64,000 nt of DNA, taken from the NCBI RefSeq assembly GCF_000442255.1, contig NZ_KE557283.1, positions 24,300 through 88,299 on the forward strand, written 5' to 3'. This DNA is from Salipiger mucosus DSM 16094. Its GTDB lineage: Bacteria > Pseudomonadota > Alphaproteobacteria > Rhodobacterales > Rhodobacteraceae. Made by a program: the position numbers and the translations under genes. Shown here piece by piece: positions 1,840 through 19,900 of the stretch; position 1 is the first letter of the stretch; each line of letters opens with the position of its first letter. The notes under the pieces are model-generated. The model ran no database searches. It saw only the letters and a list, made by a program, of their open reading frames with translations, and was not told the origin of the DNA.

Positions 1840-2328
1840 TGGCCTTCGAGACCCCTGACCATCTCGAGCGGATGCTGACACGGCTCAAGCTGACCGCGAT
1901 CCGCGACCAGCTCGACGGGCTCCTCGACGAGGCCGGGCGTGGTGAGATGACGATCCGAGAGGCTCTGACGCTGTTCTGCGAGAGGGAGATAGCCCGCAAG
2001 GATCAGCGGCGGATCGAGATGAGCTTCGGCCTGGCCCGCTTCCCCTTCGTGCGGGATCTCTCCGGCTTCGACTTTGAGGCCCAGCCTTCGGTCGACAAGG
2101 GACAGGTTCGCGACCTGGCCACCGGGCGCTTCATAGCGAACGGCGAGGCCGTGCTCCTGCTTGGGCCTCCCGGGGTGGGCAAGACCCACCTTGCTGTCGC
2201 CATAGGCCGGGAGGTGATCGTGGCGGGCTATACCGTGCTCTTCGTCCCGGCCATGACGCTGGTCGCCACTCTGGCCAAGGCGCACGCGGACGGGAAACTG
2301 GAGGAGAAGCTGGCGCACTTTGCCAAGA
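1839..2328 (+). pseudogene. istB: IS21 IstB ATPase, C-terminally truncated
   Basis: The reading frame starts with ATG at 1839, overlapping the istA stop, and encodes the first ~163 residues of an IstB helper ATPase. The Walker A motif is LLGPPGVGKTHLAVAIG. Homology ends at LEEKLAHFAK; in intact IstB proteins the Walker B segment (LLIVDELGY type) follows directly. After about 2328 the frame stays open to 2849 only because it runs antisense through a helicase gene. IstB proteins are normally about 250 residues, so roughly the last third, including Walker B, is gone. Loss of function is inferred. Confidence 0.88.
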
Positions 2329-3764: not shown

Positions 3765-4095
3765 TTGCACCAAACTACCAGTCTTTTCCAAGGTGTAGCA
3801 GATTTCGGACAGCCGGGAACCTTTCCGGACCCATTTCAAACGCGAATGGGTGCCTGCCCTGTTCATTTATTTCCGAGAATGCATCTGACCGGCGACTTGC
3901 TGGGCCGGGACACCCGATTGCCACGGGCAATGGCGAACTTTTTTCTTCGCCCCGCAGACTATTGGCCAATCTCCATTTCGAGGACCGACACAAAGACCAG
4001 CGAGCCCAAGAGATGAGAAGGAGGCCCCCCGGAAACGACTGCGGACAGGCTTGATGCTGCCACGAACGGCAGACGCGCAACCAAGGAGGACCACC
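3765..4095. other. Intergenic region without a recognised gene
   Basis: This stretch separates the start of the leftward helicase remnant from the first small rightward gene. Open frames in it lack ribosome sites and familiar sequence. The only clear element is the AAGGAGG ribosome site at 4083-4089 for the gene starting at 4096. Both promoters of this divergent pair should lie here, but none stood out. Confidence 0.5.
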
Positions 4096-6164: not shown

Positions 6165-8003
6165 CTAGACCTCCCATGCCACCGGCAGATCCTTTCGAAA
6201 ATAGAGCGCGACTCCGAAGGGCTTGGGATCGAATACGGGTTCCACCCCGTGCCGCGCCAGAATCTGCTCGACCCGGTATTTCTTGAGTCCGGTCTCGAGC
6301 GGCAGACGTGTTTTTACGGCAAACCGTTTCCGAAACCTGCCCATCGCCTCCGGTGTCACCCACGTTCCATCATCGGTCTCGATCGTATCGAGAAGCGGAC
6401 CGCCCTCCCGATTATTGATCAGGTTCTTCGTCGCATTCTTCCCGATCCCCAGCATCGCGAGAGCGAGCTCCACCGTCATTCCAGGTCGACAGCCGGAGAG
6501 CACGGATTTCAGTTCGAGGGTATCGATGACCACTCCGTCGATCCCCGGGATATCGGACATCCGACAGACCCGCTTCAAACGTCCATCGAACAGCGCCGGG
6601 AGAATGACCCCGATTTTCTGGCGGGTCTTTTCCGCGGCTTTCGCAAGCGGAACCATCCCGCGCGGGCATTCGTCGATCTCTTCGCCGAGCTCTTGCAGCC
6701 GCGCCTCGAATTTCTCGACATCGATCCGGTCGACGGCCCGGCTCAATTTGCTGCCGGCGAGTTCGACATCCCCGAGAAGTCTCAGGTATCCCAGCCGGAT
6801 CACCGCCCGCACCATGGGCCGCGAGGCATTCAGGCGGTCCGGCAATGCCGACACCGACACCGCGCGTTTCATCGCGGCGGCGACCTCCACGCCCTGTTGA
6901 TAGTCGAGAACCACGTCACCCGCCCAGTGATCCTTCTCGCTTGCCGGGACGACGGCACGACTGACGAGCATGTTCTGCAACGTCCGCGGATCGACGTGCT
7001 CGGTCTTGGCGATGGCGGCGACACTGGAAAGCCGCGGCGCCTCGACAGGCTCGCCCATCAGCGTCTGCCCTGCCTTCAGCGGGAAGCCGTCCCGGATCTT
7101 GTCGCGCACGAGCGCCCGGATCGCCCCCGGGTCCTTCGCCATCTTGTGCCACGAGAGCCACCGGTAGAGCATGCCGAGAGCGCCCTGAGGGCGGTACCCC
7201 CGGCTACCGCTGGTCCGGGCCTGGACCAGCAGGCTGTCGAGAGCGGAATCGATCCCCTGCCGGCCTTCAGCGACGGCGGACCAGCCGGCGTGCTGAGCGA
7301 GTTCCCAGTCTTCCGGCGACATCTCCCCCGCCCGCTTGTCGGGGCCGAACGCGAGCACACCGCCGAGAAATGCACTCGCACGCCAGCCCTGTTCGATGTC
7401 CTGCGCGTCGAGCCAGTCGGGCCCCGCCTGCCCCGCGATGCGCCCGAGGATATAGGTTTGCATCGGCGAAACAGAACGGCTCTCGCATGAGCGCGCCAGC
7501 GACAGGAGCGAGTCGCGATCCTCCGGTACCTGCTGGCGCAGTTCGCCGAGAGTGTCGTCCCATCGCCCGGTCCGTCGATCGAGCAGTGCGATGCCGTGAC
7601 GCTCACATGTGCTGACCGCCGCCAGCGCCCAGGAGACGCGGTGACGCCGCTGCGCGTGCGGAGCCCCGGGGTCGGCCTCGTCTTCCGCGAGACACATCGG
7701 ACAGAACCGTGTCGACGGGGCGACCCGGAACTCGGCCGAGAACTCCTGGCCCCGCAGCACGTAGAGATGCCCGCCCAGCGACTTGATGACGTTGTGACGG
7801 ACCGGGGCAGAATCCTGGTCGGCGACATCGCAGAGGCGGTCCACGGCCGTGTCCACGCCACGGGCGAGATCCACCGCCGGAACGCCGATGTCGTTGAGGA
7901 AGGGGACAAGGCCACCGCTGGTGTGGAAGGCCGCCAGTCGCCCGGCCCAGGAGATCGGCGTCTCGTCATCGCAGAATGGCAGGTGGGGGTAGAGCTTAGC
8001 CAC
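6165..8003 (-). CDS. tniQ: TniQ/TnsD-family target-selection protein
   Basis: TniQ proteins choose the insertion site of Tn7-like elements and pass it to the AAA regulator. The start chosen is GTG at 8003, overlapping the tnsC stop by eight bases and giving 612 residues beginning VAKLYPHLPFCDDETPISWA; this opening matches the TniQ N-terminus. A zinc-binding set is visible: FCPMC (C101, C104) and CERHG (C133, H136). The roughly 470 residues after it resemble the long variable C-terminal part of TnsD-like proteins, which often reads a fixed attachment site. That length suggests a sequence-specific site rather than the short resolvase-targeted TniQ type, which is inference. A terminator follows. 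Confidence 0.85.
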   Translation of the reverse strand: MAKLYPHLPFCDDETPISWAGRLAAFHTSGGLVPFLNDIGVPAVDLARGVDTAVDRLCDVADQDSAPVRHNVIKSLGGHLYVLRGQEFSAEFRVAPSTRFCPMCLAEDEADPGAPHAQRRHRVSWALAAVSTCERHGIALLDRRTGRWDDTLGELRQQVPEDRDSLLSLARSCESRSVSPMQTYILGRIAGQAGPDWLDAQDIEQGWRASAFLGGVLAFGPDKRAGEMSPEDWELAQHAGWSAVAEGRQGIDSALDSLLVQARTSGSRGYRPQGALGMLYRWLSWHKMAKDPGAIRALVRDKIRDGFPLKAGQTLMGEPVEAPRLSSVAAIAKTEHVDPRTLQNMLVSRAVVPASEKDHWAGDVVLDYQQGVEVAAAMKRAVSVSALPDRLNASRPMVRAVIRLGYLRLLGDVELAGSKLSRAVDRIDVEKFEARLQELGEEIDECPRGMVPLAKAAEKTRQKIGVILPALFDGRLKRVCRMSDIPGIDGVVIDTLELKSVLSGCRPGMTVELALAMLGIGKNATKNLINNREGGPLLDTIETDDGTWVTPEAMGRFRKRFAVKTRLPLETGLKKYRVEQILARHGVEPVFDPKPFGVALYFRKDLPVAWEV

Positions 8004-8967
8004 GACGGGTCCTCCGCTTGCGTTGTCTGGGGAGAGCCTCCGGTTCCTCGCGATGATCCGGGTCGATGAGATTCCACTCGTCGGCGCGGAAGATGTTGCG
8101 CGAGAGGGGACAACCTTCCTGCATGGCCCAGGCATCGGCGAAGTGATCCAGGTCCAGCGAGGCGTCGTCGGAGATCAATGCCCGTTCAATGGCACCGATG
8201 ATGGTCTCGATCACGCGACCGAACCTGTAGCGTGAGGCGTGGAACAGCCTGTCCAGGAGGTCTTCGTCGGACGGAGGTTCCAGCCCCGCCCTGGCGCAGA
8301 AGTGCTCGATCACCCCATCGAACGTGTCGCCGTCCGCCACGACGGAAACGGGTGGCAGTTGAACGGAGGAGAACCGCCGCTGGACCTGGGGGTCGGAGCG
8401 GACGATATCGCGCAATTGCTCGGTGCCCGAGAGTACCACGATGATCGGATGGTCGCCCTGCATGAGGGCCTTCACCGCCCGCAGGATGAGATTCCGGTCG
8501 GCACAGAAGAGATCGTGCGCCTCGTCGATCCAGAGGACCGTCACACCCAGCATCGTCAGGCGGTCGCGCAGGAGCTGCCACATGCCCCAGGCCTCTCGGC
8601 GCGAGGACACTTCGGGGTAGCCGCTGCGCTCCAGCAGCTCGAGCGTCATGCTCTTGAACGTGGCCGGGCTCGGCACGACGCTGGAGAGGTAGTGCGGTCG
8701 CCCGTCCTGTCCTTCCGCCAGCACGGGATGCTTTCGGAGCGCGCGTGCCACCAGCGTGGATTTCCCGCCCCCCCGGCCATCGACGACGAGTACGCCCCGG
8801 CTTTCGCCGGTGGATGTCATCCGCACCGGGTCGGGCAGCAGGTGCCCCTCCTCGTCGCGGCGGAGCAGGCGATCGAGCTGGGTGGTGAAGTCCGCATCCC
8901 GGTTCGTCCCGATATGGAGGCCCCGAAGGGCCTCCAATGTGCGGTCGATCTCTGCGAAGTCGGGCAT
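7996..8967 (-). CDS. tnsC: TnsC/TniB-family AAA+ ATPase
   Basis: This 323-residue AAA+ protein would link target selection by TniQ to the TnsA/TnsB transposase. Walker A is VVDGRGGGKSTLV (GRGGGKST, residues 64-71) and Walker B is VLWIDEAHDL (D148, E149). A sensor-like VVLSGTEQL segment follows. The length is that of TniB (about 300-330) rather than Tn7 TnsC (about 550). The C-terminus is very basic (RQRKRRTRRG), consistent with DNA or partner binding. The start at 8967 lies three bases after the tnsB stop, and the stop overlaps tniQ. Confidence 0.9.
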   Translation of the reverse strand: MPDFAEIDRTLEALRGLHIGTNRDADFTTQLDRLLRRDEEGHLLPDPVRMTSTGESRGVLVVDGRGGGKSTLVARALRKHPVLAEGQDGRPHYLSSVVPSPATFKSMTLELLERSGYPEVSSRREAWGMWQLLRDRLTMLGVTVLWIDEAHDLFCADRNLILRAVKALMQGDHPIIVVLSGTEQLRDIVRSDPQVQRRFSSVQLPPVSVVADGDTFDGVIEHFCARAGLEPPSDEDLLDRLFHASRYRFGRVIETIIGAIERALISDDASLDLDHFADAWAMQEGCPLSRNIFRADEWNLIDPDHREEPEALPRQRKRRTRRG

Positions 8968-8970
8968 GGC

Positions 8971-11118
8971 TCACTCCTCCTCGATCGAGAAGCCGCCACC
9001 GCCGCGGCGCGGGCGGGGCTTGACGGCGGCCGGATCTGAAGGCCGTGCCGACGAGGTCTCCGAGGTGGGCGCGGGGATCGCCTGGCCGGGCTCACCGTCG
9101 GAGGGATGATCGGGCTCGGACCGGCTGAACTCTGTTCCCAGAAAGACATTCTGCTCTGTGTGGGCCACGCGTTCCTCGCCCCAGTCTTCCACGAGCAGAC
9201 CTGCGAGCTGCGTCGCCTCGGCATTGCGTTGCTGGATCGCGTGTACGGCCTCGACGATGGCGTCCAGATTGAACGTCGTCGCATTCGGCCGGGAGGCCTT
9301 GGCGTCGTTGACAGCATTGAGCCAGCACTGCGCGGGCACACCTTCCAATCCATGGAAGACTGTCGGGATCTCGTACCAGTCGCTGCCGAGCCGGACACCG
9401 ATCGTGCCGATGTCCTTCGGATGCCAGCGGACATCCACCTTGTGAGGATCCTTTCGCATCATCCAGTCGGCGAGCAGCTTCGAGTGGTAGCGCACGCCCA
9501 TCATCGTGATGCCCTCCTTGGACAGGACACGCTTCTCGCGCCGGCCGAAGATGAGGCGGCACCGTCGCATGTCCGGCGGCGGCATGACGCCCCATTCCTT
9601 CGTCAGGCGACGCCAGCAAGCGACAGGCGTTTCGCCGCCCAGCCCGGAATGCGGCGTGTTGTGGTAGATATCGACCGTCCAGCGGACGAGCGCGAAGGAA
9701 AGATCCTCGAGAGTGAGCGACGCTCTCGTCTCGGGATCGGCGTCTCCCTTGCTGACGACATCGGAGAATGTCCGGCCGGCCAGGCGTGGGCAGAGGCCGA
9801 GAGCGATCGTACCGAAGATGCGCTCTCCGCGCCCCCTGAACTCCGGCAGTCCCGCGGCCGCGCGCATGAAGACAATCTCGAGATCCGAGCACGCGTTTCG
9901 GAACGCTTCGGATTTGAAGGCGGCGCCGCAGTCGGTCACGACCTGTTCGGGCGTCCCGTGCATGTCCCAGGAGCTCAGGGCGCCGACGGCGTCGGACCAC
10001 TTGCCCTTGTTGGTCGTGACCATCTGCAGAACCTGGACGGCTGCACTGGCCTTTGGTGACGGCGAAAGAACCATTCCAAGGATACAGCGCGTTGTCGCGC
10101 AGATCGCGAGTGTAAGCGTCCACCGCCTCTTGCTGTCGTCCAAACCGATCGCGTCGAGTTCAGCCTCGGTCATCATGTCGTAGAGACCGGTGGCCCGCAT
10201 CAATGTGATGACGTCGACAGTCCATTCATCGATCTCGACCCGCTCGAGCGGTCTCGTGAGCCCGAGCCCGTCTCCCACCGGGCGGAACTTCTTGCGTGCG
10301 GCGTCCTCGCCATCGCGCGCCGCCTTCACGACGAAGGGATCCAACGCCTTGATCGCACGGCGGACGGTCTCGCGGCTCGGTGTGCGAAGCGGCGGCAGGC
10401 CGTCTTCTTCGCGTTCCTCGTTGCATTGCCGGAACGCGATCTGGACATTCTCGTGGATGACCTTCTGCGTCGGGCGGTCGCGGCTGAGATACCCTCTGAC
10501 CTGCTCCAGCATGAGCCCGATCGCTTCGGGCTCCATCTCGCGGGAGCAGTTGCCGCGCTTGTGCATGGCATCAATCAGGCCGCCGGTTCCGAAGGTTTCG
10601 GACGCGCCAAGCCAGCGGCGCATCGTGCGGGGGCTCGGTTGTTCTCGGAAATCGTAGGACTTGCTGGGATCGCCCGCGCCAGTCGGGTTCAGGTTGCGCA
10701 CGTAGAAGACCGCGCGCGCCATGAGGACCTCGGAGTTTTCGGCGATCGACTTGTCCGTCCGCTTGATCTTTCCCTCGGCCTCCAGCTCGCGGAAGGCCTC
10801 GACATAGGCGGATTTCTTCGACACCCGGGCGGCACTCTTTGGGTCGAGCTCCGAGACCAGTGAAGAGCTGGCGACGAGTCGTTTTGCGGCCCTGTCCGGA
10901 AGGAAGTAGCCCGGATCGTGGCGGAGGCGCCCCTTCGCCCCAAGCCGGCTGAGCTGCGCGTGCGAAAACTGGCGCGAAAGGCCGGCCCCGGCCTCGGTGG
11001 CCATGACGTAGCCCTCCTCGTTGCTCGAGGTCGGACGGTAGGCGATGCCTTCGATCGTGACGCGATCGTAGGTGCCGAGGGCGTAGCGGGCATTGTCGAG
11101 ATCGAACTTCAGATCCAT
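8971..11118 (-). CDS. tnsB: TnsB/TniA-family DDE transposase
   Basis: This 715-residue Mu/TnsB-type transposase should bind the transposon ends and join their 3' ends to the target. Helix-turn-helix-like sequence fills the first 270 residues. The retroviral-integrase-like core shows VEIDEW (D297), VVTDCGAAF (D396) and RGRGERIFG (E432), so all three acidic residues are present. A Mu C-terminal-like beta domain follows, and the tail is proline/serine-rich with an acidic end (FSIEEE), a likely contact for TnsC. The ATG overlaps the tnsA stop as ATGA, so TnsA and TnsB are probably made in matched amounts. Confidence 0.93.
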   Translation of the reverse strand: MDLKFDLDNARYALGTYDRVTIEGIAYRPTSSNEEGYVMATEAGAGLSRQFSHAQLSRLGAKGRLRHDPGYFLPDRAAKRLVASSSLVSELDPKSAARVSKKSAYVEAFRELEAEGKIKRTDKSIAENSEVLMARAVFYVRNLNPTGAGDPSKSYDFREQPSPRTMRRWLGASETFGTGGLIDAMHKRGNCSREMEPEAIGLMLEQVRGYLSRDRPTQKVIHENVQIAFRQCNEEREEDGLPPLRTPSRETVRRAIKALDPFVVKAARDGEDAARKKFRPVGDGLGLTRPLERVEIDEWTVDVITLMRATGLYDMMTEAELDAIGLDDSKRRWTLTLAICATTRCILGMVLSPSPKASAAVQVLQMVTTNKGKWSDAVGALSSWDMHGTPEQVVTDCGAAFKSEAFRNACSDLEIVFMRAAAGLPEFRGRGERIFGTIALGLCPRLAGRTFSDVVSKGDADPETRASLTLEDLSFALVRWTVDIYHNTPHSGLGGETPVACWRRLTKEWGVMPPPDMRRCRLIFGRREKRVLSKEGITMMGVRYHSKLLADWMMRKDPHKVDVRWHPKDIGTIGVRLGSDWYEIPTVFHGLEGVPAQCWLNAVNDAKASRPNATTFNLDAIVEAVHAIQQRNAEATQLAGLLVEDWGEERVAHTEQNVFLGTEFSRSEPDHPSDGEPGQAIPAPTSETSSARPSDPAAVKPRPRRGGGGFSIEEE

Positions 11119-11795
11119 CAGACTTGCTTTCCGTTGAACACGTTGGAGGCGGGCGCGATGCGCTCGTGGCGCTCGAGTTCGAGATGGCGGGAGCGGACGA
11201 GACGCAGCAGGGCGCGGAAGCCCATCGCGCCGAGACCGATCTCTTGCGTGAGATCGGCGAGGGATCTGACCCCGGTCATTTCCCTGACGACGTCGGCCGC
11301 GGCGGCATCGGCCGCCGCGTCGCGTGCGCGCACCGCGTGGAGCAAGCGCGCGTTGTGGCGGGTGGTCGGGTCGAAGTCGTGCTTCGTCAGCAGGCGAAAA
11401 TCGGTGACGGCCCCGTATTCCACCGCCTGCGACGCGACCGTCGAGAGTTCCTCGAGGAAGGCGATCTTCTGGCGCGCCCGCGGGCGGACCGCGTAGGCAA
11501 CCCGCCGGCCGTCCCGTCGCACGACCAGGAAGTCGACGTAGTGAGAATGGACCTCCCCATCTTCGTCATGCCATTCGAGCTCGACCTGCTCGAACAGATC
11601 CTGTGTCTGCGGGTGGATCGCCAGGCACAGGCAGCATTCGAGCTCGTCATGGCTCTCGAGCTGGACCAGACGCCCATGGTCGTCGCCGAGGACGATCTGA
11701 CCGGTGAAGTGCCCCTTGCTGGCGATGGCCACGTCGCGATCGGCGAGGCTGGGATCGGGAAGCCGGACGGCCTCCTGGTTGGTAGAAAGAGACAT
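11118..11795 (-). CDS. tnsA: TnsA-like endonuclease, catalytic lysine position altered
   Basis: In Tn7, TnsA cuts the 5' ends so that the element is excised. The start chosen is ATG 11795 (MSLSTNQEAV), seven bases after a GAGGG site; a longer frame reaches 11885 without one. The 225-residue protein has the TnsA N-terminal nuclease layout: ESHDEL (acidic residues 47 and 51), then HYVDFLVV with D88. The strand that normally ends in a Q/E-x-K pattern reads VAYAVRPR here, so an Ala and an Arg (R104) occupy the positions expected for the acidic/Gln residue and the catalytic Lys. This may be a weakened or inactive nuclease, or my alignment may be off by a few residues. The family call rests on this motif order and on its place before tnsB. 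Confidence 0.75.
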   Translation of the reverse strand: MSLSTNQEAVRLPDPSLADRDVAIASKGHFTGQIVLGDDHGRLVQLESHDELECCLCLAIHPQTQDLFEQVELEWHDEDGEVHSHYVDFLVVRRDGRRVAYAVRPRARQKIAFLEELSTVASQAVEYGAVTDFRLLTKHDFDPTTRHNARLLHAVRARDAAADAAAADVVREMTGVRSLADLTQEIGLGAMGFRALLRLVRSRHLELERHERIAPASNVFNGKQV

Positions 11796-12792
11796 GGATA
11801 TGCCCTCGTGTTGATCGGTGGGATCGCCGCCCCCGGACGGGGCGACGCAAGCGATCATCGACGCGGCCGAGACGCGGCGCCGCATTGCACGGCATTAGCC
11901 GTGTCCGGGGCGCGCGATTGGCCACATCTTTCCCATTCTCCGAAGCGGTTTTGCCACGGAGCCGGGAGATCGAGTTTCGAGGGCGGAGGTCTTGCTTGAG
12001 GTCGAGTGCAGATCCTGCTACTCGTTCCTCCATGAAAACCAAGCGGGTTCCGATCCGCCCTACTTTCGAACGCTCGATCCGTTGCCGCGGATCGGGCGTT
12101 TTCGATTGAGATGGCTATCCTCTACATCAGACGCTCCTTTCATTTGCGAAACCACGAGGGCAAGTCGCGCTTCCCCTCCGTGGCCAGAAGCCTAGACAGC
12201 GGCGTACAGAGAGCAAGGTTTTTTTATGGTTTTTCATACACTTGTCCGATACGCCACCGCCTTTCATTATTCGCACAATGCTTTTCGCCAGTTCTGGTAC
12301 TGACGAATCCATCAAGCCCAACAATTGGTCGTTGGAGTGGGCCCGCTGGCAAATCCGAACACGAGAAAGCCGCCTGCGAAAAAGTCGTCAGGCGGCTCGC
12401 GTGCAATCGGTAGAGCTGTGCAGAAATCTCGATGACACGATCGCTCCGCCAGAAATTCCGCACGCTTCAGGGCGACGAATACCGGACAATTCAGGAGTGA
12501 TTCGTTGTTCGAGATGGCAGCTGAACACCGTCGAGCGCGCCGGGGCGGCTCAGCGTATTACGGCGTACACCGTGGTGACGATATGCGTGTTCAGGCTCAT
12601 GAAACGAGTCATATTGAATAGCCCTCGAATGGGTCAACACCGTTTTTCGCAAATTTATTGCGAGTCCGGTCGCGTTGCGTCATGACTTCACCGGCCAGTG
12701 CGCTGGCGGTGACCGCCGGGCATGCAGCATGCCAAGACAACAGCACGAGGCACGAGCCGCGCCTGCGCTCTGTCGCTGCCGGATGGAGCGTG
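11796..12792. other. Long non-coding region beyond tnsA
   Basis: Nearly 1 kb holds no convincing gene. It should contain the tnsA promoter and, by Tn7 analogy, the right transposon end with TnsB sites. I noticed AT-rich patches (around 12217-12240), TTTCATTTGCGAAA- and TTCATTATTCGCAC-like motifs near 12139 and 12271, a terminator-like hairpin (12069-12102, listed) and a second hairpin AGCCGCCTG/CAGGCGGCT at 12368-12397. None could be matched to the left flank well enough to call an end. Confidence 0.4.
12069..12102 (+). terminator. Rho-independent terminator with no gene upstream
   Basis: A 13-bp stem, AACGCTCGATCCG with CGGATCGGGCGTT (one G-T pair) and a 6-base loop, is followed by TTTT when read rightward. 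No rightward gene lies between tnsA and this point, so it may end a small untranslated RNA or limit read-through into the transposon flank. Confidence 0.65.
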
Positions 12793-14370
12793 TCAGCGGG
12801 ACATCGCACCAGCGCCGCGATCCTCCAGGGACTCCAGGAAGTCGATCAGCAGCTCTATCTGGTCATCAGTGATCAGCGCGTGTGATGCCAGGATCGGCGA
12901 TATCGCATCGATCTCTGCAGGCTCCATCAGGTGCGCCCCGTCCTCGGCATAGACACGCGCATTCCTATAGGGATCGAGATGCTGCCGTATGGCCTCGACG
13001 AGCGTTCCGGCTTGCCCATTGTGAAAGTAAGGCGCCGTGAGCGTCACGTTTCGCAAGGGCGGCGTCCGGAACAGGAAGCGATCACCGGGCATGCCGGTGG
13101 CGTAGACCCGGCCCAAGTCCTTCTCGTCGCGACGATCGGGCACGCCGACGGAATGAAATCCGAAATCGCTGAAGATGGCACCGGAATGGCAGACCGCGCA
13201 TTTGCCGATGCCATAGAAGAGAAGCGCGCCGCGTTTCTGGTCCTCCGAGATCGCGGACAGATCCCCGGCGAGGTACCGATCCCAGGGCGTGTCCCGGGAC
13301 TGGAATTCGATCTCGATGTAATGCGCGAGAGCATTGCCGAGATGGGAAGGGCGCACCTCGTCGGCGGTCGCAACTCCGTAGCTCTCGCGAAACAGCGCCC
13401 GGTAACTTTCCGCCTCGGATTGCCCGCGCGCGTCGTCGCCGAAAAGGCGGCGCGCAACGCGGGCGAGAACTGCCTCCGGTGCCGGCGTGCCTGCAGCATC
13501 AGGGGCGAGAGCGTTGGACGCGCCAGGCTCGCCGAGCATCTCGACCGGGACGAAGATCGGCCGCACGGATTGCAGCGCCATGAGGTTCTCGAACCTCCCC
13601 GTCACGAGCGTCTCGGGCAACACGAACGCGCCCTGACCTGCGGTCGTTAGGGCCTGCAGGCGGCCGTCCCAGAGCATCGCCGAGACATCGTTGTGATCGC
13701 GGTTCCACAAATCCGGCACGTTGCGCGCCGGCACGTTGGGCAACCACTCCGGCGACACGTCCAGACGTGCCTCCAATGCCGCGCCGCCGGCCGTCGCAGC
13801 AGCAAGCCCGTGGCAGGTGGCGCAAGAGCGCTCCCCCTGCCCGCTAAGCGCCGGATCAAAGAAGAGCCTCTTTCCGAGCCGGAACTTCGGGTCAGGGACA
13901 TCCTCCTTCACCGGCAGCGGCGCGAGCCCGTACAACCGGGCCGCGACACGCAGATGCGCATCGAGCGCCTCCACATCGGCACGCCCCGCCCGAAGGTCCG
14001 GGTAGGACGGATCCGCGGTCGCGGCGAGACGCAGAGCCGCGAGCGCATGCCGCGACACGCCCTCCGACAGCAGCTGTTCGGTCAGCGCTGCATAGCGCTT
14101 GCACGGCAGACGGCCGATCTCGAGGGCGTGCTCCAACCGGGACGCCTGCGCCGCATCGAGACGATCCCGGGTCTCCGCTGAAGCATCCGCGGTGCGCAGG
14201 GCCTGATCGCAGGCGGCGGCAAGGGCACGGAGGTCATCTCCCGCCCGGTGCATCAGGACCCGCGGACGCAGCTCTGCCAGGTACAGCCAGATCGGCATCG
14301 AGAGGCCAACGCCGATGATGGCGATCCGGAACAGGATGTCGAGCACGGCGCGAAGACGCACCGGTCTCAC
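12793..14370 (-). CDS. His-Xaa-Ser system-associated MauG-like di-heme protein, larger
   Basis: This 525-residue protein of the di-heme cytochrome c peroxidase/MauG family starts with a membrane segment (about residues 10-32), which would anchor it facing the periplasm. Two haem c motifs are visible: CATCH (C183-H187) and CAVCH (C391-H395). FRTPPLRNVTLTAPYFHNG is a typical family motif. The N-terminal ~150 residues before the first haem site are helical and unrecognised. MauG proteins use a high-valent di-haem state to oxidise protein side chains, so a role in finishing a peptide modification in the Hxs pathway is plausible. GTG at 14370 overlaps the stop of the gene before it (GTGA). It is the last gene of the operon. 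Confidence 0.82.
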   Translation of the reverse strand: MRPVRLRAVLDILFRIAIIGVGLSMPIWLYLAELRPRVLMHRAGDDLRALAAACDQALRTADASAETRDRLDAAQASRLEHALEIGRLPCKRYAALTEQLLSEGVSRHALAALRLAATADPSYPDLRAGRADVEALDAHLRVAARLYGLAPLPVKEDVPDPKFRLGKRLFFDPALSGQGERSCATCHGLAAATAGGAALEARLDVSPEWLPNVPARNVPDLWNRDHNDVSAMLWDGRLQALTTAGQGAFVLPETLVTGRFENLMALQSVRPIFVPVEMLGEPGASNALAPDAAGTPAPEAVLARVARRLFGDDARGQSEAESYRALFRESYGVATADEVRPSHLGNALAHYIEIEFQSRDTPWDRYLAGDLSAISEDQKRGALLFYGIGKCAVCHSGAIFSDFGFHSVGVPDRRDEKDLGRVYATGMPGDRFLFRTPPLRNVTLTAPYFHNGQAGTLVEAIRQHLDPYRNARVYAEDGAHLMEPAEIDAISPILASHALITDDQIELLIDFLESLEDRGAGAMSR

Positions 14371-15593
14371 CGATCATGCTCTGGATCGAAGTCCAGCGTC
14401 GCCAGGAACGCGACTAGGTCCTTGACCTCCTCGTCGCTGAGTTCGACCGCATAGCTCGGCTCCCCCGACCACCGCGCGATCTTCTGATAGAGTTCCGCCC
14501 GCTCGCGGGCCGACAACTTGCTGGTATTGATTTCTGCCAAGGGATCGACATGGGCGCTGATCGCGCCGGCGAGGTGCGGTTCGATGCCGGAATGGGAATA
14601 GGGCGCGGTCTTCGTGACGTTGTAAAGCGGCGGCGTGCGGAAGGCGTAGCGATCCCGCGGGTCCTGGGTGAAGTTGTAGCGGCCGTAATCGATCCCGAAC
14701 CCGTTAAAGCCGAAGCCGAACTGCGCGAACGGGATCGCGTGGAAGGTAAGATCCGAGAAATATGGACCGCTATGACAAGCGGCGCATTGCCCGCGCCCAT
14801 AGAAGAGCAGACCGCCGGCCAGCTCCCGATCCGTCAGCCTCTGCCCGTCGAACACGAAGCGATGGAGTTTCGTGTCCCGCACGCGGAATTCGGATCGTAT
14901 GAAGGCGGCGAGGGCCTCGGCGATCTGCAGGTAGGTCAGCTCATCGACCTTCAGGTCAAACGCCTCGGACAGGGGCGCGGCGATCTCTGGGCTGGCGCGG
15001 ATTCGGCGGGCGATCTCCTGGTGAACCTCGGCCGCGGCACCGACTTCGCCCTGGCGAAGCCATTCGGTATCATCGCTTTCCCCGATCATCTCGCGGAATT
15101 CCACCGGCGGCAGATGCGCGGTCACGACCAGCGGATCGTCGGACGGTGCCATCGTGCCGAACTGGCTCCGAATTTCGCCCGAGCTGGCATCCACCCGGCC
15201 ATCCCAGAAGAAGACATCGAAGCCGATCCCGCCGCGTCCCCAGAGCGCGAGCGTGTTGCGCGAGAGTACCCCGGCCGGGCTCTTCATCCGCTCGACTCCT
15301 TTGCCGATACCGCCCGCGCCATGGCCGAGCGGCAAGCCGTCGGCGGAGCCGAACTCGTCGAGGTGGCAGCTGCGGCAAGAGACGTTTCGCGTCAACGACA
15401 GGAGTTCGCTCTCGAAGAGGCGCTCACCAGCCGCCGCCTTTTCCGGGTCGAGTTCGGGCCAGAGCTCTTCGGCGGGACGCAGGCCGTTCTCGAGCACGGC
15501 CTCTCGCAGAACGGCCTCGCGCATGGTTTCGGCCATGGCGGGGACGGCGCAGCCCAGGGCGAGCGCGATCAGGAGCCTAGTAGCGGATTTCAT
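14367..15593 (-). CDS. His-Xaa-Ser system-associated MauG-like di-heme protein, smaller
   Basis: The 408-residue product has a cleavable signal peptide (about residues 1-21, ending AMAE) and two haem c sites, CRSCH (C73-H77) and CAACH (C270-H274), with the family motif FRTPPLYNVTKTAPYSHSG. It should be a periplasmic di-haem oxidase of the MauG/CcpA type. Its start overlaps the preceding gene by 17 bases, and its stop overlaps the next di-haem gene. Two MauG-like proteins side by side with HxsABCD match the gene neighbourhood described for His-Xaa-Ser loci. The actual substrate is unknown. Confidence 0.84.
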   Translation of the reverse strand: MKSATRLLIALALGCAVPAMAETMREAVLREAVLENGLRPAEELWPELDPEKAAAGERLFESELLSLTRNVSCRSCHLDEFGSADGLPLGHGAGGIGKGVERMKSPAGVLSRNTLALWGRGGIGFDVFFWDGRVDASSGEIRSQFGTMAPSDDPLVVTAHLPPVEFREMIGESDDTEWLRQGEVGAAAEVHQEIARRIRASPEIAAPLSEAFDLKVDELTYLQIAEALAAFIRSEFRVRDTKLHRFVFDGQRLTDRELAGGLLFYGRGQCAACHSGPYFSDLTFHAIPFAQFGFGFNGFGIDYGRYNFTQDPRDRYAFRTPPLYNVTKTAPYSHSGIEPHLAGAISAHVDPLAEINTSKLSARERAELYQKIARWSGEPSYAVELSDEEVKDLVAFLATLDFDPEHDR

Positions 15594-15975
15594 GGATTCC
15601 GATCACATCCTGCAGATCTGTGGCCTTTGCCTCGATGGCCCTGAGCGCCATGTAGCCGAGCGCCGCCTCGTCGAGACCGAGCAGCACCAATCGCTTCCGG
15701 AGCAGATCGTAGTCCTGGCAATCTATCAGCGCGATCTCGCTGGCCTCGAGCTCCCGGACGGTCTCCTCGGAGGGGGCGGCCTCCAGGTTCTGCTTGGCCA
15801 GGAGATGCGCGCGCATGGACCGATCGCAGCGATAGGTCGCTTCCTGGTAGGAGGGTTCAGCAATGAGGATCACCCCCCAGATCCAGAGCGGCGGAGCGAG
15901 CTGACCGATCAGCACGCCGCCGGCGAGGACCAAGGCATAGCGGACCCGGTTACTTCGCAACAATATTGAGCGCAT
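15577..15975 (-). CDS. Small membrane protein of the His-Xaa-Ser system (TIGR03982-like)
   Basis: This 132-residue protein has one N-terminal membrane segment (about residues 12-38, YALVLAGGVLIGQLAPPLWI) followed by a soluble, mostly helical, acidic domain with two cysteines (TYRCDRS and LIDCQDY). Its length and position between HxsA and the MauG-like genes fit the small accessory protein family known from Hxs loci; the exact family name is from memory. The start at 15975 overlaps the hxsA stop by 26 bases and has no obvious ribosome site, consistent with coupled translation. It might tether or chaperone periplasmic partners, which is a guess. Confidence 0.65.
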   Translation of the reverse strand: MRSILLRSNRVRYALVLAGGVLIGQLAPPLWIWGVILIAEPSYQEATYRCDRSMRAHLLAKQNLEAAPSEETVRELEASEIALIDCQDYDLLRKRLVLLGLDEAALGYMALRAIEAKATDLQDVIGIHEIRY

Positions 15976-16477
15976 CCAGGACCTCGGGAGTGATCGTGCC
16001 GGTGATCTTCAGGTCCCAATCCTTCTGGAACTTGCTGAGCGCGGTCTTGGTCCCGGTCCCGACGATCCCGTCGATCGCACCGGTATAATAGCCGTAAGTG
16101 TAGAGCGCCGTCTGGACGCGCTTGACGATCGCAGTGAAGGCCGCGCTGTTGCCCGGCAGCGTCTTCGGGGCCTGGGGCGCGCGCGGCAGGACATAGGAGG
16201 GGGGCGTGCTGTTGCTCGAGGGCGGCGACGGTCGATAGCTTCCGCCGCCCGAATAGCCCCCGCCGGAAGACGAGCGGTGACTGCCATGTGACCCGTGGCT
16301 CGAATGCGACCGGTGACCGGCAAGCGCGTAGCTGTGCTCGCCCCGGAGGATCTGGAAAAGCGAGGGCGAATGGTCGTCGTCGTGATCCAGCCGCGGTGGC
16401 GCGACGACGGCCTGCGCGGTCTGCGGCAAGTACCCGGCCGCCGCGAGCGTGATTGCGAACTTTCCGATCTTCTTCAT
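15950..16477 (-). CDS. hxsA: His-Xaa-Ser repeat protein HxsA, predicted modification target
   Basis: The 175-residue product begins with a clear signal peptide (MKKIGKFAITLAAAGYLPQT, cut near AQA). An acidic stretch follows (DHDDDHSP), then five perfect tandem His-Xaa-Ser triplets at residues 55-69 (HRS HSS HGS HGS HRS). Next come a Gly/Ser/Pro-rich linker and a C-terminal peptidoglycan-binding domain (residues about 115-174, VQTALYTYGYYTGAIDGIVG and LSKFQKDW). This is the architecture predicted for the substrate of the two radical SAM enzymes encoded just upstream. It is probably exported and held at the cell wall. ATG 16477 overlaps the hxsC stop as ATGA. Confidence 0.9.
   Translation of the reverse strand: MKKIGKFAITLAAAGYLPQTAQAVVAPPRLDHDDDHSPSLFQILRGEHSYALAGHRSHSSHGSHGSHRSSSGGGYSGGGSYRPSPPSSNSTPPSYVLPRAPQAPKTLPGNSAAFTAIVKRVQTALYTYGYYTGAIDGIVGTGTKTALSKFQKDWDLKITGTITPEVLDALNIVAK
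16271..16315 (-). repeat. Five tandem His-Xaa-Ser codon triplets in hxsA
   Basis: Forty-five bases encode HRS-HSS-HGS-HGS-HRS without interruption. The repeat unit is nine bases. In the Hxs model this is the stretch that is modified; the chemistry is unknown. Confidence 0.9.
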
Positions 16478-17553
16478 TGCGGCTGTATCTCCATGAAGCC
16501 GTCCTCGTCGCGGTACCACTCGAAGAACCCGGCGCAGCGCGCGCGGAGACTGCAGGACTCGCAGCCCGGTAGGTATTTCTGCTTCCAATCGGAAATCGAT
16601 CGGGCTGCGAGATCCCTGTATGCAGGAGGCACCGTGCAGAGCGGGAAGTTGTAGAGCGCGACGCTCTGGCGTCGCGCTCGCATCAGGTCGATCGCCGCGC
16701 CGAGGTCGGCGAAGTTGGTGCTGCTGTCGAAGAAGCAGCGGGTCCAGTTCATCCGGCCATAGCCGATACGCTCCATCTGCATGATCGCCCAGGTTGCCGC
16801 GAATGGCAGATGCCGCGTGATAAAATCGGCAAGGCCGGGGAGCCCTGACGCGTTCTGCTTCAGAACGACCGTTCGGAGCTCGAGCGCCGCGCCGGCGAGG
16901 CCCAGAAGCGAGAGCTTTTCGGAGAGTTCTGCGAAGGCGCCGGGTTTTCCGACGATCTCGTCATGCGTCGCGGCATTGTCGGAATAGATCGGCACGCCCC
17001 AGAGGAGGCGCTCCCGATGCTTGCGCAGCCAGGGCAGATCTTCGCGCTCGAAATGCTGTCCGTTGGTCAGGATGTGGAAGCCGAGATCGTCGCGCTCGGC
17101 GAACGCCGCATCGATGAAGTCGAACAATCCGCGCTTGTGCAGCAGCGGCTCACCGCCGGAGAGGCCGATCTGCGCCCCCGGCGGCGCAAGCCGGGCGGCG
17201 GTCCGGAAATGCCCGAACATGTCCTCGTGATGCGGCTTCGGCGGCTGGGAGCACATGAGGCAGAGCTGGTCGCATTGCTCGGTGATGAGAAACGTATTGT
17301 GCGGCGAGGCCGCCCGGATGAGACGATGGGCAACCTGTCGACGCGGGTCGATCAGCAGCACATCGCCCGCGATATCCGCAGGCGTGACATCCCGAAGCCG
17401 GAAGTCCGCGTAACCGGTTCGGAATCCCAGGACGCCCGCCTCCTGCCAGGCAAGAACCGCGTCCTCCGCGCATCGCGGCTCGCCATTGGCGATCCGGGTC
17501 ACGAATGGCGATAGCGCGCCGTCGCAGTCCGATCTGAGGCGGAGCTGGATCAT
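16474..17553 (-). CDS. hxsC: His-Xaa-Ser system radical SAM maturase HxsC
   Basis: This 359-residue radical SAM enzyme carries the 4Fe-4S motif CxxxCxxC at TEQCDQLCLMC (C94, C98, C101), a GLSGGEPLL motif 2 for SAM binding, and a C-terminal cysteine cluster (GCESCSLRARC) that could hold a second iron-sulfur centre. It is predicted to modify HxsA. The start is ATG 17553, overlapping the hxsB stop (ATGA); a longer open frame to 18024 lies inside hxsB antisense to nothing and is not used. The stop overlaps hxsA in the same way. Two different radical SAM proteins in one operon with a repeat target is the defining feature of the Hxs system. Confidence 0.9.
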   Translation of the reverse strand: MIQLRLRSDCDGALSPFVTRIANGEPRCAEDAVLAWQEAGVLGFRTGYADFRLRDVTPADIAGDVLLIDPRRQVAHRLIRAASPHNTFLITEQCDQLCLMCSQPPKPHHEDMFGHFRTAARLAPPGAQIGLSGGEPLLHKRGLFDFIDAAFAERDDLGFHILTNGQHFEREDLPWLRKHRERLLWGVPIYSDNAATHDEIVGKPGAFAELSEKLSLLGLAGAALELRTVVLKQNASGLPGLADFITRHLPFAATWAIMQMERIGYGRMNWTRCFFDSSTNFADLGAAIDLMRARRQSVALYNFPLCTVPPAYRDLAARSISDWKQKYLPGCESCSLRARCAGFFEWYRDEDGFMEIQPQ

Positions 17554-18962
17554 GGCGCGACCGGTCTCAAGGCTTCGGGAAGAGCTTCGAGCCCCAACCA
17601 GCGGGACAGGGTGAACTCGACCGCCGCTTCCCTGCTGTAGAGCAGCTCCATCGCGAGATCGAACAGGGCGAGGTGGCGCTGGCAGAACCAGCTCTCCTGC
17701 CTCGGCACATCGATGCGGCTGCTGCGCGAGAGATCGTCGATGGGATCGGTGCCGCAGAAGGGCTGATACGGGCAGTGAATGCAGTCGGGATCGAAACTGT
17801 TGATGTGGGCCGGCGCCAGAACAGCGATCTTCTCGGGATCCAGGCCGTCCGTCACGTTGCCGATCGCGAGATCGACCTGCCGGATTCGCGCGAGCATGCG
17901 GGCCTCGTCGCTGGGATAGATCTGCCCGTCGAAATCGATGACCGCGTTCGCGCCGCTGGGGAAATTGGGGTTCCGGAGGTCGGTGTGACTGTCCACGCCG
18001 GGAGCCAGGATGCGTCTCAGGCAATGGGCCAGGTAGAACTCTTCCATCACCCGGCCCGTCCGCGCGTTCCTCGCGATCAGCGTGTCGATGAATCCACCGT
18101 AGTATTCGATCCAGTCGGTCGAGGATCGGGCGGAAGCGTGGTTCTTACGGGCGAAGCCCTGGTAGTTGACGGGGCGCAGGTACAGCGAGGTGAAGCCGAA
18201 CGCCTCGTAGGCCGAGATCAGCGCCTCGGGGTCTGGCGGATCCTCCAGATCGATGGTCGGCAGGGCGGAGACGCGATCAGGCCCGACCAGGTCGATCACC
18301 CGTTCGAGATTTCGATGGAAGGTCCGGGTCAGCTCCGTGTCGCCGGTCCGGTTCCGGGTGTGGACCTGGTGCGGCCCATCGAGCGAAGTGCTGATCAGCA
18401 CGTCGTCGTGTGCGAGAAAGGCGAGGATGTCATCGTCGAGGTTCTGCAGGTTGGTGCAGACCACGAAGCGGACATTCCGAAATCGTCGGCGCGCGAATGT
18501 GGCGACAGCCTCCAGGTGATCTAGTCTCAGAAACGGCTCCCCGCCCTGGAATTCGATCTGGATCTCCTCGACCGGCAATGTGTCGAGAAATCCCAGCACC
18601 CTTTCGAGGGTCTCTTCATCCCAGTCGAAGCCCTTCGACGCGAACGGGGCCCGCGACACCTGGCAGTAGGAGCATTTCAGGTCACAGCGCAGCGTCGGGA
18701 TCAGGATGACATAGGCTAACCCGCCACCGACATGCTGACGTCGTGACCACCGCGTCAAAAAAGCGGTATGGGCGAGATCGCCTGTCCGATCGAAGGCGTG
18801 GCCCCTCTCCCGCAGAAACCGTTCGTCAGGGAGCGTCAGCGCGTCCCGGGCGTAGCGATCAACGAAATCGCCGTCGGCCAGGAAATAGGCCCCTGTCTCA
18901 TCTGCGAGGAGTGTCCGGCGATCATCGAGATCGCGAAACCGGAGCGGCCAGACCTGCTTCAC
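17550..18962 (-). CDS. hxsB: His-Xaa-Ser system radical SAM/SPASM maturase HxsB
   Basis: The 470-residue protein has a radical SAM core with LRCDLKCSYC (C93, C97, C100), a FQGGEPFLR SAM-binding motif, and a SPASM-like C-terminal cluster (DCIHCPYQPFCGTDP) for auxiliary iron-sulfur clusters. SPASM enzymes typically modify ribosomally made peptides. The first ~80 residues lack a known fold and could recognise the substrate. The start is GTG 18962, which overlaps the hxsD stop as GTGA, so hxsD-hxsB-hxsC-hxsA form one translationally coupled run. The assignment to HxsB rather than another SPASM family rests on the neighbours. Confidence 0.9.
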   Translation of the reverse strand: MKQVWPLRFRDLDDRRTLLADETGAYFLADGDFVDRYARDALTLPDERFLRERGHAFDRTGDLAHTAFLTRWSRRQHVGGGLAYVILIPTLRCDLKCSYCQVSRAPFASKGFDWDEETLERVLGFLDTLPVEEIQIEFQGGEPFLRLDHLEAVATFARRRFRNVRFVVCTNLQNLDDDILAFLAHDDVLISTSLDGPHQVHTRNRTGDTELTRTFHRNLERVIDLVGPDRVSALPTIDLEDPPDPEALISAYEAFGFTSLYLRPVNYQGFARKNHASARSSTDWIEYYGGFIDTLIARNARTGRVMEEFYLAHCLRRILAPGVDSHTDLRNPNFPSGANAVIDFDGQIYPSDEARMLARIRQVDLAIGNVTDGLDPEKIAVLAPAHINSFDPDCIHCPYQPFCGTDPIDDLSRSSRIDVPRQESWFCQRHLALFDLAMELLYSREAAVEFTLSRWLGLEALPEALRPVAP

Positions 18963-19216
18963 GTCGTCAGCATCTCGTAAAGGCTCTGCCGCATGGGCAA
19001 TGTCTGCTGAAAGATCTTCTCGCGATAGATCTGGTAGGTCACCTCGCGTTCGAGCCGCGCGGGATCGGCGCCGGACGTGCCGCTCACGTTCACGCCCTGT
19101 TCGGACGCCCCGAAGTCCAGCTCAGGATAGAGGTAGCTCAGGCGCAGGAGGGACGCGGGGATGTAGGGGTGAAATGCCGGGTCTATCGAGATATCGAGTA
19201 CGTGGCTCGCGGGCAT
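18959..19216 (-). CDS. hxsD: His-Xaa-Ser system protein HxsD
   Basis: The first gene of the Hxs operon encodes a small protein (85 residues from ATG 19216). A longer frame from TTG 19276 gives 105 residues; I prefer the ATG because known HxsD proteins are short and begin near this point. The sequence has a beta strand pattern at the start (ASHVLDISIDPAFHP) and a helical end (EREVTYQIYREKIFQQTLPM). Neither cofactor motif nor signal peptide is visible. It may be a peptide-recognition or partner protein for HxsB/HxsC, by analogy with small partners in other radical SAM peptide systems; that is inference. Confidence 0.78.
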   Translation of the reverse strand: MPASHVLDISIDPAFHPYIPASLLRLSYLYPELDFGASEQGVNVSGTSGADPARLEREVTYQIYREKIFQQTLPMRQSLYEMLTT

Positions 19217-19564
19217 ATCGGTGATCTCGGATCCTGCTGACAAGAAACTGGCGCATAACGCGGATATGCTGATCAATGCGCGCAGAATTTGGCGAAATTC
19301 AAGCCTAGGGCGTCAAAGGAGTTCGCATCGAGACATCTTTCGGCTCAGGGTGGTCGAGCTGCATCACTCGGCTGCCGCCCGTCGCGATCCGATCCTTCGG
19401 CGTGCCGCGGGCGGGAGCGAAAGTGTCCTCCGATCACGCCAGCCGAGGCGCGACGCGCGGCATGCCGCGACGAAGTTTTCGACGCGAGAGAATCCATTCT
19501 TGCCAATCCCGCATCGGACCTGACAATTTCGACCGGCAACAAGGCATTCGGAGGAATTGATCGG
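19217..19564. other. Intergenic region between hxs operon and DUF1508 gene
   Basis: These 348 bases separate divergent genes. The hxs promoter should be at the left side and the promoter of the rightward gene at the right. A GGAGGAATT ribosome site at 19550-19558 belongs to the gene at 19565. No repeat or hairpin stood out. Confidence 0.5.
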
Positions 19565-19900
19565 ATGGCGGGTAAATTCGAACTCTACAAGGACAAGGCG
19601 GGAGAGTTCCGGTTTCGTTTGAAGGCGGGAAACGGCGAAATCATCCTGGTCGGCGAAGGCTACAAGCAAAAGGCCGGCGCCGAGAACGGTGTCGCCTCGG
19701 TGCGCACCAACGCGCCGCTGGACGACCGCTACGAGCGCAAGACCAACTCAGGTGGAGACCCCATGTTCAACCTCAAGGCCAGCAACGGCCAGGTCATCGG
19801 GACCAGCGAGGCCTATAGCAGCGTAGCGGCGCGCGACAACGGCATCGCATCGGTGAAGTCGAACGCGCCCGACGCTAAGCTCGACGACCAGACCGACTGA
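19565..19900 (+). CDS. DUF1508 (YegP-like) protein with two repeats
   Basis: This 111-residue protein consists of two DUF1508 units: GKFELYKDKAGEFRFRLKAG..ENGVASVRTNAP and DPMFNLKASNGQVIGTSEAY..DNGIASVKSNAP. YegP-type proteins are small soluble beta/alpha folds of unknown role, often linked to stress in other bacteria. The start at 19565 follows a strong GGAGG site seven bases upstream; an open frame reaching back to 19289 lacks one. It stands alone between the hxs operon and a leftward phosphoesterase. Confidence 0.88.
   Translation: MAGKFELYKDKAGEFRFRLKAGNGEIILVGEGYKQKAGAENGVASVRTNAPLDDRYERKTNSGGDPMFNLKASNGQVIGTSEAYSSVAARDNGIASVKSNAPDAKLDDQTD

Follow-up and report, generated by a model that had tools for sequence, protein, structure and literature searches.

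His-Xaa-Ser (Hxs) peptide-modification systems were reportedly defined by Haft and Basu in 2011 through the protein families TIGR03976 to TIGR03979, TIGR03981 and TIGR03982, a set that is computational in origin and already includes MauG-like members. Here we describe a seven-gene Hxs locus at positions 12793-19216 of a 64,000-nucleotide stretch of DNA (hereafter the window) from the alphaproteobacterium Salipiger mucosus DSM 16094 (contig NZ_KE557283.1, positions 24,300 to 88,299 of the forward strand); the window lies on contig C11 of a genome of 5.69 Mb in 30 contigs. An initial annotation had recognised the system, rightly took it to be known mainly from computation, and foresaw a new kind of exported modified polypeptide; this last expectation goes beyond what the sequence shows, the family set having been defined computationally before. 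What is new here, as read from sequence, is the haem accessory module, the pairing of TIGR03982 with MauG and the fused copy of that pair, a MauG-linked box in the precursor HxsA, and an inter-haem Trp. We propose, with middling confidence, that the operon would modify a wall-bound protein in two compartments, by radical S-adenosylmethionine (SAM) chemistry and then by a box-guided haem oxidation. Its elements are as follows.

18959..19216, minus strand: hxsD (85 aa), accessory protein, provisionally assigned from its position before hxsB in relatives and from TIGR03976 matches of relatives
17550..18962, minus strand: hxsB (470 aa), radical SAM maturase with Cys 93/97/100 and 394/397/403/427, from TIGR03978 and cysteine conservation
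16474..17553, minus strand: hxsC (359 aa), second radical SAM maturase, from TIGR03977 and cysteine conservation
15950..16477, minus strand: hxsA (175 aa), with signal peptide, five HxS repeats, a linker bearing the STPP box and a peptidoglycan-binding domain, from TIGR03979 and PF01471
16271..16315, minus strand: HRS-HSS-HGS-HGS-HRS repeat core, HxsA residues 55-69, from sequence, shuffle test and mixed Ser codons
16187..16213, minus strand: STPPSYVLP box, HxsA residues 89-97, seen only in HxsA of MauG-bearing loci, from sequence comparison
15968..16126, minus strand: peptidoglycan-binding domain of HxsA, residues 118-170, from Pfam PF01471
15577..15975, minus strand: TIGR03982 gene, N-terminal membrane helix and a helical part with invariant Cys 50 and 86, from the family model, a 21-row alignment and AlphaFold2
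14367..15593, minus strand: mauG1 (408 aa), di-haem MauG-like protein, CxxCH at 73 and 270, Trp130, predicted axial His348, from TIGR03981 and alignments
12793..14370, minus strand: mauG2 (525 aa), di-haem MauG-like protein, CxxCH at 183 and 391, Trp234, predicted axial His464, from TIGR03981 (below cut-off) and alignments
14020..14313, minus strand: TIGR03982-like N-terminal membrane domain of mauG2, residues 20-117, from TIGR03982 at E 1.3e-4

How does this locus compare with the systems described so far? Passages of earlier reports state that HxsB had been annotated previously and that the motif putatively relies on HxsB and HxsC (PMC9062424), list hxsABCD in a genomic region of Pseudomonas aeruginosa (PMC8446631) and place an Hxs island in Vibrio parahaemolyticus (PMC6537148); the available part of PMC8326336 makes no mention of Hxs. 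With annotated plasmid loci that carry one MauG the window shares its gene order, and its HxsB, HxsC, HxsA, TIGR03982 protein and one MauG lie above the curated cut-offs; it differs in having a second MauG module, which is fused to a TIGR03982-like domain and falls short of the TIGR03981 cut-off, in the STPP box of its HxsA and in an HxsD that misses TIGR03976. The triceptide enzymes (HaaB, YhhB, MscB) likewise have a three-residue motif whose first residue is aromatic, and the i to i+2 links that they form, as given in the available part of PMC11002830, are C2(His)-Cb(Ala) for HaaB and C4(Phe)-Cb(Ser) for MscB; the window, by contrast, has two partner radical SAM enzymes, with a reduced auxiliary cysteine set and no family-level match, and tandem repeats in a 175-residue wall protein. 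Its haem proteins resemble MauG (of tryptophan tryptophylquinone biosynthesis) and BthA in their two c-haem motifs, inter-haem Trp and sequence kinship, but they carry His where the aligned di-heme enzyme 6e1c has Tyr, and they reach 65.2 and 119 bits against TIGR03791, whose cut-off is 443.85. MbnH (TIGR04039), also MauG-like, is matched by the two window proteins at 96.5 and 107.6 bits, both under its cut-off of 362.85, and no methanobactin or MbnP model matched any of the seven operon proteins.

Seven leftward open reading frames (ORFs) span the locus, as annotated initially, and every neighbouring pair overlaps: by 4 bases at hxsD/hxsB, hxsB/hxsC, hxsC/hxsA and mauG1/mauG2, by 17 at TIGR03982/mauG1, and by 26 at hxsA/TIGR03982, this last figure being counted from the first ATG of the small gene, whose start in relatives lies 15 bases further in, at what is a TTG in the window. 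The same order, D-B-C-A-TIGR03982-MauG-MauG, recurs in L008, L009, L010, L011 and L012, and the nearest hxsB loci, at 76-82% identity, come from Pseudooceanicola, Primorskyibacter, Thioclava, Roseovarius, Paracoccus and other alphaproteobacteria. When the families were called by the curated cut-offs of NCBIfam hidden Markov models, and by Pfam, most of the early assignments held. Both radical SAM enzymes pass (HxsB, 395.7 bits against TIGR03978, cut-off 370; HxsC, 298.3 bits against TIGR03977, cut-off 267.9, and the one HxsC above cut-off in the whole genome), as do the small membrane protein (TIGR03982, 104.4 bits, cut-off 40), the first MauG-like protein (TIGR03981, 438.2 bits, cut-off 340) and, by a margin of 0.65, the exported HxS protein HxsA (TIGR03979, 122.3 bits, cut-off 121.65; 120.5 bits, just under, in the whole-genome scan). 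HxsA also has the expected PG_binding_1 domain (8.7e-14 in Pfam) and a Sec-type signal peptide predicted by eye; the other six TIGR03979 matches in the genome reach only profile positions from 86 on. The second MauG-like protein stays below the TIGR03981 cut-off at 234.3 bits and is recognised as CCP_MauG by Pfam (6.1e-28).

HxsD is the one gene whose name stands in part: its place before hxsB is as expected, and 3/23 aligned same-position sequences match TIGR03976 (best 3.9e-5), but the window protein is not among them and matches no NCBIfam or Pfam model at E <= 1. The 23-sequence alignment holds two invariant Arg and a conserved C-terminal helix, and it is via this helix that a weak profile comparison with two annotated HxsD proteins aligned (probability 9.9%, E 0.0032). 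The predicted fold is beta-alpha-beta-beta-alpha with a long conserved C-terminal helix (AlphaFold2; predicted local distance difference test, pLDDT, 92.1; predicted template modelling score, pTM, 0.79), and a search of solved structures gave no convincing match to it. Taken together, the locus is a genuine, complete-looking Hxs operon in which HxsD is assigned provisionally; it belongs to the rarer kind that bears MauG, and its haem module is doubled.

The haem genes are an accessory module, absent from many Hxs loci. The window was compared with 42 loci and then with 17 further ones, 'MauG-less' meaning that no MauG lies in the locus stretch examined, and L031, L016, L022 and L150, where the contig ends, being set to unknown MauG status. 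MauG is present in 14 loci of the first group and 2 of the second, which with the window makes 17 MauG-bearing (MauG+) loci (L009 and L010 are near-identical); a TIGR03982 gene precedes MauG1 in all 17, and no TIGR03982 match was found in any other locus of this set. The picture is similarly sparse in genomes at large: across 385 genomes of the class, HxsB exceeds its cut-off in six and TIGR03982 in two, both among those six (three other class genomes of one genus, G185, G279 and G357, give weak matches to TIGR03982 below cut-off), TIGR03982 exceeds its cut-off in 3 of 390 genomes of the order, and TIGR03981 does so in 2 of 394 genomes of the family and 1 of 398 of the phylum. No relatives of mauG1 were found in viral contigs. 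A second MauG, found in ten loci (the window, L008 to L015 and L117), is in nine of them fused to an N-terminal TIGR03982-like domain, for which L015 has a separate gene directly before MauG2; the curated TIGR03982 model recognises the fused domain of the window (E 1.3e-4) and that of L117 (genome G523, 3.7e-7). As they form one protein in some genomes and two in others, TIGR03982 and MauG would be physical partners. C50, C86 and Y89 of TIGR03982 are invariant in 21 rows, 12 of them stand-alone proteins and 9 second copies, and the second MauG is, on these alignments, a second copy of the TIGR03982-MauG pair. Given its membrane helix, we propose that TIGR03982, modelled with four helices (AlphaFold2, pLDDT 86.5, pTM 0.66), is best read as an anchor or docking subunit of the oxidase; its two cysteines would suit a periplasmic disulfide. 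The fused mauG2 of L117 (6662-8353) is divergent and sits upstream of hxsD rather than last in the operon. In L013 (14110-15442) and L014 (3937-5455), mauG1 is broken at two different places by transposase genes, IS256-like by eye; mauG2 and the HxsA box are intact in both despite the interrupted mauG1.

How would the haem step find its substrate? The comparison of relatives suggests that it may do so via a box, S-T-[PS]-[PR]-x(2,3)-[VI]-[LM]-P, which lies between the repeats and the wall domain of HxsA in MauG+ loci. HxsA matches of less than 100 bits were dropped (except L128), the starts of L012 and L126 were trimmed by hand, and the sets were reduced to distinct sequences, from 36 to 31 and later from 53 to 47. 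In the discovery set of 31, on which the box was defined, it is present in 13/14 MauG+ and 0/17 MauG-less HxsA (one-sided Fisher 6.8e-8, descent disregarded). Among the loci found later, MauG+ L156 has STPPVSILP and 13 MauG-less HxsA have no box; L147, which is MauG+ with TIGR03982 and belongs to the other half of the tree, has none either. The total comes to 14/16 distinct MauG+ against 0/30 MauG-less HxsA, with the box also absent in L150, of unknown status; in L018 (Breoghania) an insertion of about 90 residues splits it into STPP and SSILP. From the way in which the box goes with MauG we infer that the haem proteins act on HxsA.

Perhaps, however, the box is a remnant of an inherited linker, which accompanies MauG through descent rather than for its function, a reading that we regard as doubtful. 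On a tree of HxsB plus HxsC, reduced at 95% identity from 53 to 41 tips and omitting L019 and L115 for their short HxsB, MauG changes 6 times on the best tree and 5 or 6 times over 250 bootstrap trees, and the box changes 4 times on the best tree and 3 to 5 times over the same bootstrap set; shuffled MauG labels need 11.6 changes on average and at least 6 in 500 shuffles, so that descent accounts for part of the pattern of both traits. Where MauG+ and MauG-less lineages alternate, the nodes are weakly supported (42-58), which leaves the number of independent joint losses uncertain, and to these points in favour of mere inheritance may be added the boxless L147 and L137, which is MauG-less in the stretch examined and keeps a partial NSTSPR. 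But distant MauG+ loci keep the box, among them L117 and L118 (38% and 40% HxsB identity), L116 and L156, and it is missing from the MauG-less tips of their half of the tree, which is also the window's (L137/L138, L139, a Rhizobium group and a group of L017/L123/L130), the MauG+ tips among them having the box, L018 in its split form. The counts over bootstrap trees, 3-5 changes for the box and 5-6 for MauG, also speak against a remnant.

If HxsA is the substrate, which part of it is modified? A run of five contiguous HxS triplets was reached in 0 of 200,000 residue shuffles of HxsA. The Ser codons of the five window repeats are mixed (TCG, AGC, TCA, AGT, TCG), so that it is the protein sequence of the repeat that is kept. 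Across 46 distinct repeat cores, chosen for having at least four HxS in succession, the run is 4 to 8 triplets long (5 or 6 in 40 of them), and 12 residue types fill the middle position of the 260 triplets; TCN and AGY Ser codons are mixed in 46/55 cores, duplicates counted. Protein-level selection would thus keep the spacing of His and Ser and leave the middle residue free, as expected if the modification joins or needs residues i and i+2. The wall-binding domain is kept, by pattern, in 37/47 distinct HxsA, and in five (L128, L140, L141, L142 and L148) the repeats lie near the C-terminus with no wall domain; L128 and L142 are of the Leptospira phage LE1 type, with HxS repeats present and the wall-binding domain absent.

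The enzymes that would act on these repeats carry well-kept cysteines. In HxsB, Cys 93, 97 and 100 are retained in 41/42 sequences (one gap) and Cys 394, 397, 403 and 427 are invariant in 42/42; in HxsC, Cys 96, 100 and 103 are retained in 40/40 and Cys 308, 333, 336 and 342 in 39/40 (one gap), in the numbering of P0003, which begins two codons before the ATG. For each enzyme these sets fit one radical SAM cluster and a single auxiliary one. The usual SPASM motif has seven cysteines and two auxiliary clusters, and the early description of HxsB as SPASM-like thus applies to the four invariant C-terminal cysteines, which fit one auxiliary cluster, the rest of the motif being missing. Below their cut-offs, HxsB also matches the models of many peptide maturases, those of sulfatase maturase and cyclophane enzymes included, and these matches are not informative on chemistry; for the cyclophane models the scores are 49.2 bits for YhhB (cut-off 445), 31.8 for XyeB (450), 38.7 for AmcB (425) and 38.8 for FxsB (370). 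HxsB of Thioclava plasmid p5 (L115, 5989-6948) is without about 135 core profile positions; HxsC, HxsA, TIGR03982 and MauG are present there.

Could the pair instead turn the repeat Ser into formylglycine-like aldehydes, as anaerobic sulfatase maturases do, with the haem proteins acting on the aldehydes? HxsB does match the anaerobic sulfatase maturase model TIGR03942 (59.1 bits, E 3.8e-16), and Ser is fixed in the repeats around a variable middle residue, the fixedness of H and S coming partly from selection by the HxS pattern. That match, however, is far under the cut-off of 349.45 and no better than those of HxsB to other families; moreover, His is as fixed as Ser, which Ser oxidation alone does not need, and two radical SAM enzymes are kept. 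We regard this chemistry as unlikely.

The haem proteins themselves can be set against better-known relatives. All full-length Hxs MauGs have two CxxCH motifs, and the residue aligned with Met of the peroxidase 3o5c and with Tyr of the di-heme enzyme 6e1c, which we take to be BthA, is His, a predicted axial ligand on the strength of that alignment. This His is present in 15/15 MauG1-type proteins, 10/10 MauG2-type proteins and 32/32 generic relatives (57/57), and a bis-His second haem was accordingly rejected as an adaptation specific to Hxs. A MauG variant with His at that Tyr is said, by a title in a reference list, to have been studied. The Trp of the motif xxWDG[RK] is distributed otherwise, being found in 15/15 MauG1-type and 10/10 MauG2-type proteins and in 0/32 generic relatives, which have His (28), Ala (2), Leu (1) or Tyr (1) at this position. 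MauG1-type proteins, L147 included, form a clade with bootstrap 100, MauG2-type proteins another with 100, and both together are separated from the generic relatives with 99. A MauG-like family with His in an xxHDGR motif and the axial His is frequent in the bacterial family of the window (L066-L096, L107). In the available part of PMC6405878, the six-coordinate haem is ligated by Tyr-His in MauG and by Met-His in bacterial cytochrome c peroxidases, and Trp93 between the MauG haems supports charge resonance.

Kinship with di-haem cytochrome c peroxidases also opens the way to a simpler role, in which the MauG-like proteins would work as peroxidases, shielding the product or the cell against hydrogen peroxide, and would leave HxsA unmodified, and generic relatives are indeed common, with a TIGR03981 match at E <= 1e-60 in 226 of 394 genomes of the family. 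A stand-alone peroxidase, however, has no need of a box in HxsA that goes with MauG (14/16 vs 0/30), nor does such a role sit well with separate Hxs clades and with an inter-haem Trp absent in 32/32 generic relatives; we find it improbable.

We thus return to modification in two compartments. Inside the cell HxsB and HxsC, with HxsD as a substrate-handling partner, would act on the HxS triplets; the likeliest modification would be a bond between His i and Ser i+2, of the kind known from three-residue cyclophanes (triceptides), and such a link is the most economical prediction that the spacing and the i/i+2 links of triceptides allow. The radical SAM step is placed before export because inspection by eye shows no signal peptide in HxsB and HxsC and because such enzymes depend on a reducing cytoplasm. 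HxsA would then be exported and held in the wall by its C-terminal domain. Since c haem is attached outside the cytoplasmic membrane, the haem proteins would act after export: they would receive their c haem there (three Cytochrom_C_asm genes lie above cut-off in the genome), be held there by TIGR03982 and dock on the STPP box. Once docked, they may oxidise the pre-modified His array to give a redox-active or metal-binding wall segment. The repeats are favoured as the haem target because no box residue is both oxidisable and always present and because in L118 the stretch of HxsA from the repeats to the wall domain is free of Tyr, Trp, Cys and Met; a Tyr or Trp of the linker as a universal MauG target is not supported, given this same L118 protein. 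The haem stage would be an optional second step, many Hxs loci having the radical SAM stage only. As to what the product does, we guess that it binds metal or takes part in redox chemistry at the wall, a guess helped by noursin, a peptide with a cross-linked His that requires the cross-link to bind copper (PMC10206099, in the part available). That all this amounts to a new class of wall-anchored protein-derived cofactor, a tandem array of His-Ser linked units built by the two radical SAM enzymes in the cytoplasm and turned in the periplasm, by two membrane-held MauG-like oxidases with a bis-His second haem and with the guidance of a docking box, into a redox-active or copper-binding ribbon, is a bolder thought to which we give a rather low probability.

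Several observations weigh against this proposal. The triceptide link is drawn from the spacing of the motif, the scores of HxsB against the YhhB and XyeB models being far below cut-off; HxsA only just passes its own model and HxsD fails its own; and the predicted axial His is shared with generic relatives. On the side of the box stand L147 without it, L018 with a split one, the weak interleaving nodes and the partial descent of both traits. Another possible oxidation target is a Gly-Tyr of the wall domain, which MauG+ and MauG-less HxsA share. Lastly, the literature searched, which is thin on subscription journals, yielded no experimental study of any Hxs protein.

Directly downstream of the operon (window 6165-11885) lie TniQ, TniB and a Mu-type transposase by Pfam, with a TnsA-like ORF that has no Pfam match, an arrangement that is Tn7/Tn5090-like. 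Hxs as cargo of a Tni transposon was considered and rejected, a tblastn search having found none of the Tni genes (TniA, TniB, TniQ, TnsA-like) in the other 42 loci; no inverted or direct repeats of at least 14 nt were found in 11880-12800, and we treat these genes as an accidental neighbour. Further away (538-3866), an IS21-type pair, transposase plus IstB, shares bases with the end of a UvrD-like helicase ORF, which it seems to interrupt. Divergent to hxsD (19289-19900) is a DUF1508 (YegP-like) gene, with a counterpart of 61% identity in the same place in L009 and L010 (9079-9678). Elsewhere, 398 plasmid records contain an HxsB at E <= 1e-40, and Klebsiella accounts for 304 of these, where the plasmids are mostly conjugative and one examined closely carries hxsD-B-C-A without MauG; in L123 and L130 (Aminobacter and Mesorhizobium plasmids), hxs adjoins an operon of the cyclic-oligonucleotide-based antiphage signalling system (CBASS). 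That Hxs is a mobile conflict system of defence or competition with modified HxsA as its effector, as these plasmid records, an HxsB in a Leptospira phage record and 16 viral-contig loci, the two CBASS neighbours and the confinement of TIGR03982 to the window's own genome among 5 of its genus in one sample might suggest, is very unlikely, for the mobility and CBASS counts stand without control neighbourhoods for comparison, the two CBASS loci share neighbours and make one observation, and most HxsA keep the wall-binding domain.

What, then, would modification of HxsA in two compartments mean for the Hxs family? Hxs genes are widespread, as the plasmid records show, and no described product was found for them. 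If the proposal is true, one exported protein is modified twice, inside the cell by radical SAM chemistry, which is sensitive to oxygen, and outside by haem chemistry, which uses peroxide, and a short substrate box couples the inner to the outer chemistry. In the Hxs MauGs an inter-haem Trp seems to go together with a second axial His, a combination that has a bearing on the route by which MauG reaches its high-valent state. The split between MauG+ and MauG-less loci provides matched systems for separating the radical SAM from the haem steps. The most useful additions may be the partnership of TIGR03982 with MauG and the MauG-linked box of HxsA, which make a vague association testable.

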